Of a DNA stretch of 64,000 nucleotides, positions 19,738-21,930 are shown one piece after another. Every line of letters starts with the position of its first letter. Positions within the stretch are counted from its first letter, which is position 1. This stretch comes from Clostridiales bacterium Firm_14 (GTDB lineage Bacteria; Bacillota; Clostridia; Saccharofermentanales; Saccharofermentanaceae), in NCBI GenBank assembly GCA_001604135.1, contig LVAT01000015.1:1-64000 (forward strand). The letters are read 5' to 3'. A program made the position numbers and the translations under genes. Under the pieces are notes generated by a model. That model ran no database searches. It had not been told where the DNA came from and worked only from the letters and a program-made list of their open reading frames with translations.

Positions 19738-21027
19738 ATGGGTTACGACCGTTCACGTTTTGAGATTTTGAGCCCTGCAGGCAATCCGGACAAGCTCCGT
19801 GCCGCAGTTGCTTATGGTGCCGATGCGGTATACCTCTCGGGCCAGAGCTATGGCCTCAGAGCCTTTTCCGACAATTTCAGCGAAGACGAGATGAAGGCAG
19901 GAATTGCCTATGCTCACGATCATGGCGTCAAGTGCTATGTAACCTTGAATGTCATGCCCACTGAAGAAGATCTGAACGGTCTGGAGCACGCTATAAGGTT
20001 CGTCGGACTTGAGAGCGGCGCTGACGCAGTACTGATCTCCGATCCCGGTGTCTTCACCATGGCGCGTACATTATGCCCTGACCTGGAGATCCACATCTCG
20101 ACCCAGGCAAGCGTCACAAACAGCGCTGCATGCAATTTCTGGGCCTCCCATGGCGCGAAAAGAATAGTCCTCGCAAGAGAGGTCTCTTTGGAGCAGATCA
20201 AAAAGATCCGTAAAGCTATCCCGTCCGATGTCGAACTCGAGTGCTTTGTTCACGGCGCAATGTGCGTCTCATATTCCGGCAGATGCCTTCTGTCCAATTA
20301 CTTTACAGGCCGCCGGTCAAATGGCGGCGCGTGCGCACAGCCCTGCAGATGGGGTTATTACGTCGTTGAGGAAAAGCGCCCGGACATCCCGCTCCCGGTC
20401 GAGGAAGACCGTAGAGGAACATATATCTTCGGCAGCCGAGATATCTGCATGATCGACCATATTCCGGAACTCCTTGATGCAGGCATCAACTCATTTAAGA
20501 TCGAAGGAAGGATCAAGGGCGCATACTATGCCGCAGCAGTAACCAAGGTCTACAGGGAAGCTGTTGATCTCTGCTGCAAGGATCCTGAGAACTATAAGGT
20601 CGATCCAAGGTGGAAGGTCATCCTCGATAAGGTCGTCCACAGAGATTATGACACGGGGTTCTTTTTCAACAGCCCTGCTGACGACGCCAAGATCGATCCG
20701 GATAAGTCTTATAACAAGCCTGCCTTTGTAGTGGGCGTTACTGAGAGTTTTGATAAAGATTCAGGACTTATCAAGGTCACCCAGAAGAATAAGCTGTACA
20801 AAGGTGACACGCTTAATGTCCTTATGCCTGAAGGTTATGTAGCTCCTATCGTTGTAGCCGAGCTATATGATGCGAAGATGAATCCCGTCGATTCCTGCCC
20901 GCACCCTGAGATGACTTTCTACATGAAGGCAGTATCGTCTGAAGATGGTGCTGTAATTGAGCTCCCGCCGATGACATTCCTTTCCCGTGACGGCGATAAG
21001 GACTTCGGTATTCCTGCTCCGAATTGA
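19738..21027 (+). CDS. Peptidase U32 family protein, TrhP-like
   Basis: 429 residues. Starts FEILSPAGNPDKLRAAVAYGADAVYL, read as FEILSPAGNPDKL then GADAVYL, the TIM-barrel opening of the family. The U32 signature ECFVHGAMCVSYSGRCLLS (about 167-185) and GACAQPCRWGYY supply the Cys residues that bind an iron-sulfur cluster in characterised homologues. NSFKIEGRIKGAYY is at about 252-265. Relatives (YegQ/TrhP, YrrN/YrrO) are needed for prephenate-dependent hydroxylation of U34 in tRNAs rather than proteolysis. The mltG neighbourhood supports this. I see only one U32 gene, where Bacillus has a pair. Confidence 0.88.
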   Translation: MGYDRSRFEILSPAGNPDKLRAAVAYGADAVYLSGQSYGLRAFSDNFSEDEMKAGIAYAHDHGVKCYVTLNVMPTEEDLNGLEHAIRFVGLESGADAVLISDPGVFTMARTLCPDLEIHISTQASVTNSAACNFWASHGAKRIVLAREVSLEQIKKIRKAIPSDVELECFVHGAMCVSYSGRCLLSNYFTGRRSNGGACAQPCRWGYYVVEEKRPDIPLPVEEDRRGTYIFGSRDICMIDHIPELLDAGINSFKIEGRIKGAYYAAAVTKVYREAVDLCCKDPENYKVDPRWKVILDKVVHRDYDTGFFFNSPADDAKIDPDKSYNKPAFVVGVTESFDKDSGLIKVTQKNKLYKGDTLNVLMPEGYVAPIVVAELYDAKMNPVDSCPHPEMTFYMKAVSSEDGAVIELPPMTFLSRDGDKDFGIPAPN

Positions 21028-21155: not shown

Positions 21156-21192
21156 CCGGGATGTGCCCAAATGTCAGAAAACGTTAACTTTT

Positions 21193-21226
21193 TTGTAACA
21201 ATTCCTGACATTGGTTGTGCTATACT
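21193..21226 (+). promoter_or_regulatory. Promoter of the small structured transcript
   Basis: TGC precedes TATACT (21221-21226), an extended -10. TTGTAA at 21193-21198 is a possible -35 but the 22-base spacer is long. The predicted start is near 21232. Confidence 0.5.
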
Positions 21227-21274
21227 CAAGCCATCAAGGAAATGGAACGAATTAGTTCTAGGGAGGTGAGACCA

Positions 21275-21340
21275 ATGGGAAGTGAAACACAAACAAGCAG
21301 ACGGTTGGTCTTGCTTGATTCAGTAGTTTCCTCCAAGTAA
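21275..21340 (+). CDS. Possible 21-residue peptide
   Basis: The ORF encodes MGSETQTSRRLVLLDSVVSS plus a final Lys. The ribosome site GGGAGGTGAG (21261-21270) is one of the strongest in the window and is 4 bases from ATG at its 3' edge. The ATG overlaps a 7-bp helix (21269-21275 with 21305-21311), and CCTCC near the ORF end could pair with GGAGG, so access to the start may be controlled. The peptide has two Arg and a short Val/Leu stretch, with no signal peptide or known family. It could be incidental to a structured RNA. Confidence 0.4.
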   Translation: MGSETQTSRRLVLLDSVVSSK

Positions 21341-21435
21341 GTTTTTACTTAATATTGAGTTATCCTCAAAAGTTGAATCAAGAGATCGATCGGAACTTGG
21401 AATTACAGCTGAATATTTTTAGTAACAGTTAACCC

Positions 21436-21467
21436 ACTCCCGCACCAATCTGCGGGAGTTTTCTTTG
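21436..21467 (+). terminator. Intrinsic terminator of the small transcript
   Basis: A perfect 9-bp GC-rich stem (21436-21444 with 21451-21459, 6-base loop) is followed by TTTTCTTT. Confidence 0.85.
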
Positions 21468-21514
21468 CCTGTTGATCGAAAAAACGATTTTCCGGATCAC
21501 GGGAAGAAGCCCGC

Positions 21515-21543
21515 TTGACAACTCCAGACTATCGCAGTAGTAT
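21515..21543 (+). promoter_or_regulatory. Promoter of the BlaI-M56 operon
   Basis: A perfect -35 TTGACA (21515-21520) is followed after 17 bases by TAGTAT (21538-21543). Confidence 0.7.
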
Positions 21544-21565
21544 GGACTACAGGAATAGTCTGGAG
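21522..21565. promoter_or_regulatory. BlaI-type operator: perfect 11-bp inverted repeat
   Basis: CTCCAGACTAT (21522-21532) is repeated inverted at 21555-21565, with GTAGT/ACTAC between as a smaller dyad. One arm lies in the promoter spacer and the other just after the expected transcript start, overlapping the ribosome site region. This position suits repression by the adjacent BlaI-family protein. Confidence 0.65.
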
Positions 21566-21573
21566 GAATTAAC

Positions 21574-21930
21574 ATGGGTGAGAAACTGTTTGACAGCGAA
21601 GCAAAGGTCATGGAGATCATTTGGGAGAAGGGTCCGCTTTCTGCCAAAGAGATAAGCCTGATCGCAGCTGACACCATCGGATGGAATAAGAATACGACCT
21701 ATACGGTCATCAAAAAGCTCGAAGCCAAGGGCTTCATCAGACGTGATGAGCCGGGTTTCATCTGCACACCGCTTGTAACCCGTGAACAGATGCAGAAGCA
21801 GGAGACGGAATCGCTGATAAACAGGTTTTTCGGCGGCTCCAAAAAGGCTTTGTTCTCTGCATTGATCGATAAAGAAGATCTCACGGAAGAGCAGGCGGAG
21901 GAACTTCAGAGGATCATTGATAAGTGGTGA
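21574..21930 (+). CDS. BlaI/MecI family transcriptional repressor
   Basis: 118 residues. Winged helix-turn-helix of the BlaI type: the start LFDSEAKVMEIIWEKGPLSAKEI is read as LFDSEAKVMEIIWEKGPLSA (about 4-23), then TTYTVIKKLEAKGFIRRDE (about 42-60) as recognition helix and wing. The C-terminal helices form the dimer. Family members bind dyads and are removed by proteolysis through a partner M56 metalloprotease, which is the next gene (6-base gap). A long inverted repeat overlaps its promoter, so it probably represses its own operon. No beta-lactamase gene is nearby, so the target is likely something else. Confidence 0.92.
   Translation: MGEKLFDSEAKVMEIIWEKGPLSAKEISLIAADTIGWNKNTTYTVIKKLEAKGFIRRDEPGFICTPLVTREQMQKQETESLINRFFGGSKKALFSALIDKEDLTEEQAEELQRIIDKW

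Follow-up and report, generated by a model that had tools for sequence, protein, structure and literature searches.

What is encoded by a short intergenic stretch that carries a promoter, a ribosome binding site, a reading frame of 21 codons and a terminator of its own? This question is raised by 275 nt (21193-21467) of the 64,000 nt of contig analysed here, referred to as the window, which are situated between a U32 peptidase gene (19738-21027) and a BlaI/M56 gene pair starting at 21574. In the original prediction, the locus was described as an unrecognised small structured RNA or leader. The host is described as a rumen bacterium, and the gene with its approximately 230 letters is self-contained. 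Small RNAs of Saccharofermentans-type gut bacteria seem to be little studied. Among the papers listed on small or noncoding RNA and riboswitches of Saccharofermentans, all dealt with other subjects, and those listed on elements of this kind in Clostridia contained nothing on the element; an earlier description may nevertheless exist.

Anatomy, promoter and distribution of the element

According to its sequence, the region 21171-21465 reads as an autonomous transcription unit with an activator-type promoter, an extended -10 region, a 5' hairpin, a strong Shine-Dalgarno (SD) sequence, a 21-codon ORF and a 9-bp terminator (Table 1). Three of these parts had been claimed before and were recovered: the extended -10 region, the strong ribosome site, read as AGGGAGGTGA in front of the ATG at 21275, together with its ORF, and the terminator with nine pairs and a T-rich tail. 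The single-sequence signals are individually modest, the fold of 21220-21470 being better than that of 197 out of 200 shuffles (z -2.73). The element is considered to be beyond chance because homologues keep the spacing between box and -10 region, the co-varying helices and an open short ORF. Judged from these comparisons, the element is real, and it is very probable that its anatomy is that of an independent RNA gene with a translated ORF, a self-masked SD and a competing helix.

Table 1. Positions of the parts of the element in the window.
Feature	Position	Strand	Basis
Upstream box ATGTCAG...CGTTAAC...TGTAACA...CTGACAT, 11-bp-phased half sites	21171-21211	+	conserved spacing
Extended -10 region TGCTATACT, without good -35 region	21218-21226	+	sequence; kept in relatives
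Transcription start	~21233	+	inferred
5' hairpin UGGAAC:GUUCUA, directly upstream of SD	21243-21260	+	predicted, 6 bp
Segment A, SD and start-codon region AGGUGAGACCAAU, partner of B	21264-21276	+	co-variation
21-codon ORF MGSETQTSRRLVLLDSVVSSK, stop codon UAA	21275-21340	+	sequence; ORF kept in relatives
Segment B GUUGGUCUUGCUU, inside ORF; mask of A or, within 21301-21324, partner of C	21304-21316	+	comparison
Second anti-SD UUUCCUCC, at ORF end	21327-21334	+	kept in much of the window's sub-family
Small hairpin holding the stop codon, AAGUAAG-UUUUU-ACUU	21335-21350	+	
Hairpin UUGAG-CUCAA between B and C	21355-21369	+	kept in alignment; in predicted folds
Segment C GUUGAAUCAAGAGAUCGAUCGG, alternative partner of B	21372-21393	+	co-variation, duplex prediction
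Intrinsic terminator, 9-bp stem (21436-21459) and T-rich tail	21436-21465	+	sequence scan

Among relatives, a 5' hairpin of at least four pairs but differing sequence occurs in 40 of 46 distinct leaders and is absent from the other six; in 30 of those 40 it ends at most 6 nt from the leader end. The leader folds have a mean z of -1.5 against mononucleotide shuffles. A terminator-like hairpin was found in 47 of 51 members by a scripted count. In other members, the motif UAAGGUUUUAUUUUC begins at the stop codon or within 7 nt of it. Its GGTTTT lies at most 7 nt from the stop in 26 of 58 members and is absent from 32, the window carrying the variant GTTTTT, and this position holds despite ORF lengths between 16 and 28 codons. 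The chance of GGUUUU in shuffled sequence is about 0.5% for an 18-nt span, a value to be read with the relatedness of the members in mind, which are not independent cases.

Within the genus (Saccharofermentans-type gut bacteria), the element was identified in at least 59 of the 83 genomes. These comprise 54 genomes matched by a covariance model built from relatives, as the original prediction had proposed, three sub-family-3 genomes missed by the model (G001, G017 and G077) and two recognised by promoter pattern (G014 and G059). The model covers 101 positions and 20 members and was applied at E <= 0.01 with stricter filters, by which weak matches are lost. The seven weakest matches all have a start codon and a short ORF, and all of them have an SD except L186, a member which lost it. 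When the element served as blastn query, 53 of 85 genus genomes had a match at E <= 0.01, a few of these matches not being the element; others in relatives (e.g. L018 and L021, both inspected) were discarded as chance. Across the order, the model with the same filters matched 54 of 188 genomes, all from this genus and none from 29 other genera. An exact pattern, which misses variants that do not fit it, returned 51 stretches from 84,980 species; 42 of them represent the element and come from records with titles such as Saccharofermentans, Ruminococcaceae, Clostridiales and Oscillospiraceae, and nine are chance matches elsewhere. The window genome has one copy, and two in tandem were found in G011 and G022.

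That the element matches no known RNA family was borne out by the search: Rfam 15 gave no match at gathering thresholds across the whole 64-kb window, and in eight loci with relatives the sole match was to a tRNA, which lies in L017 at a distance from the element. No tRNA lies in the 64-kb window. The best sub-threshold score near the element was 20.9 bits for RF00512 (Leu_leader), followed by 17.2 bits for RF00513 (Trp_leader). Both overlap weakly with the 3' half and the terminator, but they remain far below their gathering scores (50 and 41), and the overlap omits A, B and the ORF start. The element constitutes a new RNA family, which is well supported by comparison.

The promoter region is characterised by its fixed geometry. 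In a count for which the box was chosen without reference to spacing, 46 of 51 members have exactly 44 nt between the GTTMAY box and the end of the -10 region, and 47 have 44 or 45 nt. The exceptions are L085 (45 nt), L059 (33 nt) and L017, L020 and L068, in which no extended -10 region was found. The distance between -10 region and ATG ranges from 40 to 84 nt. From its conservation, the box is taken as the putative site of a dedicated activator. The box and -10 patterns alone found two members missed by sequence searches, L085 and L204; both have an SD, an ATG and a short ORF, A:B can be drawn weakly in both, and their recovery is a partly independent check on the element.

Half sites phased by 11 bp resemble the boxes of PhoB/WalR-type regulators, and for this likeness a pstS promoter was looked for. 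Membership in a Pho regulon was rejected, as the only PF12849 protein of the genome lies outside a recognisable pst operon and its locus shows no such box. A wide regulon was likewise rejected, as the promoter patterns mostly return the element itself (24 of 27 and 28 of 37 matches); the patterns are exact, so that looser sites would escape, and the window genome lacks a match to one of them because its box reads GTTAAC. Non-element matches of the first pattern were L082, L083 and L090. Those of the second lie upstream of a STAS-domain-like gene (six), a MATE-like gene (two) and a glyoxalase-like gene (L208, which is the L090 site again), the gene names being assigned by eye. In L197, L214 and L220 (G042, G087 and G098) and three more genomes, the STAS-domain-like gene is preceded by a conserved promoter-like sequence GTTAATACTTTGTTTTGA...TGTGATATACT, picked up because its box spacing fits that of the element; three of these six sites were read and the other three deduced from near-identical matched letters.

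One segment with two pairing partners

The most important helix of the element is A:B, in which 13 bp are formed between A and the segment B within ORF codons 10-14. A start codon beside a helix had been noted before; the helix exists, but it was described too modestly, as it covers both the SD and the start codon. A CCTCC near the ORF end had also been suspected of masking GGAGG. This anti-SD is present (21330-21334) and UUUCCUCC replaces B in some minimum free energy folds, but it is the second one, and the main mask is B. By comparison and prediction, the SD is masked by an anti-SD within its own mRNA.

In the sequences compared, A:B co-varies, both sides having changed together across sub-families. 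In an ungapped section of a MAFFT alignment with 20 chosen sequences, 93.8% of the A:B cells are paired, compared with 29-52% when the partner is slid by 1-3 columns, and seven cells are changed on both sides; none of 500 shuffles reached seven cells or 93.8%. The number of pairs with double changes is two, which is not above shuffles (195/500). The informative changes adjoin the SD because the SD itself cannot vary freely; they include GAGACC:GGUCUY, GAGUCC:GGAUUC, GAUUCC:GGAAUU, GAUACC:GGUAUC and GAGGCC:GGUCUC. When partners were swapped among 18 chosen members, the cognate mean was -16.3 kcal/mol compared with -13.6 (sd 0.56) for permuted partners, and none of 20,000 permutations reached it. 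The own partner ranks first in its row for just three of the 18, and in L085, L059, L017, L020 and L117 the cognate energy is no better than the swap mean. Weak members in comparison with shuffles are L017 (61/200), L085 (36/200), L020 (31), L065 (29), L059 (26/200) and L204 (100/1000). With few first ranks and weak single members, the A:B signal therefore resides in the set and not in each member.

The second partner of B, an addition to the original prediction, is segment C downstream of the stop codon; for the window RNA, none of 200 shuffles gave a duplex as good. Compensatory changes, which had been named as a check, were found for both A:B and B:C. In the window's sub-family, one B:C pair is G:C in 23, A:U in 13 and U:A in two of 38 distinct rows (read by eye), and such changes track the sub-families, so that few independent events are counted. 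Since ordinary MAFFT alignment misplaces C between sub-families, duplex swaps and an anchored table were used to examine B:C. The swap set of 18 chosen representatives, not identical to that for A:B, gave -22.3 against -17.6 (sd 0.96), with one of 20,000 permutations as good. Duplex and swap tests show no clear B:C in sub-family 3 or in L022, L085, L117 and L191, and in the swap test L185, L187 and L189 rank just 4-10 of 18 when combined with their own C. For these tables, identical copies were collapsed to 50 distinct rows (38 of 41 in the anchored B:C table), and L050, which has a run of N in its 3' part, was dropped from alignments and fold tables. A:B and B:C exclude each other because they use the same bases. 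Comparison and prediction hence point to mutually exclusive helices overlapping the short ORF, not in every sub-family.

Folding energies were computed for 46 of 51 members, leaving out four without a called terminator and one with N. Forcing A open costs the window RNA 6.4 kcal/mol, after which a long B:C helix is formed. The mean cost of opening A falls from 7.7 kcal/mol for the RNA up to the stop codon to 6.2 kcal/mol for the whole RNA (n=46). The 3' part lowers this cost in 33 members, in 14 of them by more than 3 kcal/mol, and does not lower it in 13. In the window RNA it raises the cost from 3.9 to 6.0 kcal/mol, and a rise is also seen in the near relatives L035 and L036; even when C is included, prediction favours the closed form of the window RNA. 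Since the computed folds favour the closed state, this is the likely default, and switching away from it, which the original prediction had considered possible, is a proposal.

The open reading frame and its product

After the SD, an ORF of 16-28 codons is open in all 58 members tabulated (L186 and L204 lie outside this table). In 42 sub-family-1 members, codons 1-17 have a mean dN of 0.31 and a mean dS of 0.36, calculated for pairs with 3-20 differences and hard to read as a ratio under the pairing constraints. At codons 5 and 6, outside A:B, the amino acid changes freely. An acidic residue at position 4 occurs in 53 and G at position 2 in 51 of the 58 peptides, and the pattern S-R-x-L-V-x-L-x-S recurs in most of the window's sub-family; between sub-families, little is common beyond M-G-x-E/D. 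Frameshifts at the ORF end are tolerated in L007, L045 and L048. As the ORF is kept open while its residues are weakly constrained and little shared between sub-families, translation seems to be kept while the peptide is not.

The window peptide has no Pfam or NCBIfam match. The GRAVY values of the 58 peptides average -0.15 and range from -0.92 to 1.13 (best 15-residue window 1.31), the highest belonging to MGSISRSSKLLVFLGSVI, which is found in two members. A longer ORF from the in-frame ATG at 21242 was rejected, since no SD precedes this codon at the right distance and relatives such as L005 do not conserve it.

Possible modes of action and neighbouring genes

In our main reading, to which we give a probability of about 0.5, the element is a genus-specific, stand-alone structured small RNA of ~230 nt, in which translation of the short ORF is controlled by the RNA's own fold and the output lies in the state of the RNA. 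Transcription would start from a promoter that carries a site for a dedicated activator and end at the RNA's own terminator. The new RNA would form A:B and, with B covering SD and start codon, rest in a closed state. An initiating ribosome would keep A single-stranded and translation would melt B; the freed B could be caught by C, which in many members would lower the cost of staying open. Two states may result, untranslated/closed and translated/open, and selection would see the state and not the peptide sequence. The output may be the exposure of the UC-rich, anti-SD-like segment B, or RNA stability. Promoter architecture, ORF, A:B, B:C and terminator are supported by the sequence comparisons; that the helices alternate in the cell, with translation as trigger and an RNA-based output, we infer.

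A tentative and rather doubtful extension is that the element is an RNA switch in which translating an ORF of near-free sequence is itself the act of sensing. The RNA would signal how available ribosomes are, or how strongly they initiate, to an output at the RNA level and would need no downstream gene. The ORF of ~20 codons would hold the mask of its own SD, end in many members at GGUUUU(AUUUUC), and yield the peptide as a by-product. As the fold was kept through evolution and the peptide mostly was not, the comparison suggests a new family of RNA switches. Conservation of the peptide and conservation of the act of translating a short ORF, which normally go hand in hand, are separated in this element. 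A genuine switch would be a compact natural device that senses translation itself, and the predicted mutations allow a direct test of this.

That the transcript is a small mRNA for a functional micropeptide of ~20 residues, with folds that merely throttle translation, appears unlikely: SD, start context and length of the ORF are kept in 58 members and the acidic residue 4 and the sub-family pattern fit such a role, but dN is close to dS, the sub-families share little past the first residues, the ORF ends tolerate frameshifts and the window peptide has no database match. A further possible role is that of a cis-acting leader or attenuator for the gene behind the element. In most of the window's sub-family, the element is preceded by a U32 peptidase gene and followed by a gene for an AI-2E transporter or a BlaI-like protein. 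Its neighbours in other sub-families are a small gene of 56 aa, a trpE-like gene behind a T-box-like leader, or unrelated genes; the names were given by eye, in part by comparison with window proteins. Short leader ORFs overlapping mutually exclusive helices, as in the trp and ermC leader-peptide attenuators, are the classical attenuator layout; the element shares it, and the following gene mostly has the same orientation. It differs in that it masks the SD of the ORF itself, that its terminator is outside the co-varying, alternating helices and that no constant regulated gene was found downstream; L022 and L064 have no co-directional ORF of at least 70 aa listed there, and blaI of the window has a promoter-like site of its own. 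With flanking genes that vary from lineage to lineage, the element is very unlikely to be a leader for one gene, and of the two descriptions in the original prediction, small structured RNA and leader, the former is supported and the latter disfavoured.

Other readings draw on characterised small transcripts. VcdRP, SgrS/SgrT, AzuCR, SR1 and RNAIII are dual-function RNAs in which a small transcript carries a short ORF (PMC8672173), and the sequence signals of the element likewise indicate an independent transcription unit with a short ORF. A trans-acting sRNA, in which UC-rich anti-SD segments would hit the SDs of target mRNAs and the ORF would be secondary, could build on the complementarity of B and the CCUCC stretch to SD sequences. 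We nevertheless consider it quite improbable, since self-pairing accounts for B, whose sequence varies by sub-family, unlike a conserved seed; in comparison with the dual-function RNAs, the peptide is little conserved, there is no invariant seed across sub-families, the conserved pairing is internal, and the lack of an Hfq family match in the genome weakens a trans-acting role. The nearest published mechanism found is that of the aapA3 mRNA of Helicobacter pylori, where an anti-SD inside the ORF can mask the SD during transcription (PMC6733600). In the same source, aapA3/IsoA3 and hok combine a short ORF, an in-ORF anti-SD over the SD and competing helices, to which A:B and B:C are analogous. 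That the element is a type I toxin mRNA masking its own SD is still highly improbable: the peptides of the element are neither hydrophobic as a set nor conserved, and a scan for sigma-70-like antisense promoters gave sites in 5 of 51 members, with a mean of 0.10, below the 0.35 of mononucleotide shuffles. That promoter-, ORF- and terminator-like sequences came together by chance, for which the modest single-sequence signals speak, is refuted by conservation and co-variation in homologues and has a negligible probability.

Several observations were made on the neighbouring genes. In L062, L063, L065, L185 and L188, a small gene (~56 aa in L065, MDIDVNKIKD...) is located 3' of the element; it has no Pfam match and an NCBIfam match only below threshold. 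In L069, L059, L063 and L065, a T-box-like leader GGTGGCACC lies downstream of the element and before the trpE-like gene, and the Rfam gathering search of L014 and L063 reported no T-box. In L007 and L010, the AI-2E transporter gene has a TATAAT just six bases before its ATG, which suggests a leaderless mRNA. In the window, the promoter-like TTGACA-17-TAGTAT of blaI (21515-21563) is overlapped by a long dyad, CCAGACTATCGCAGTAGT...ACTACAGGAATAGTCTGG, which is presumably a BlaI-type operator for autoregulation.
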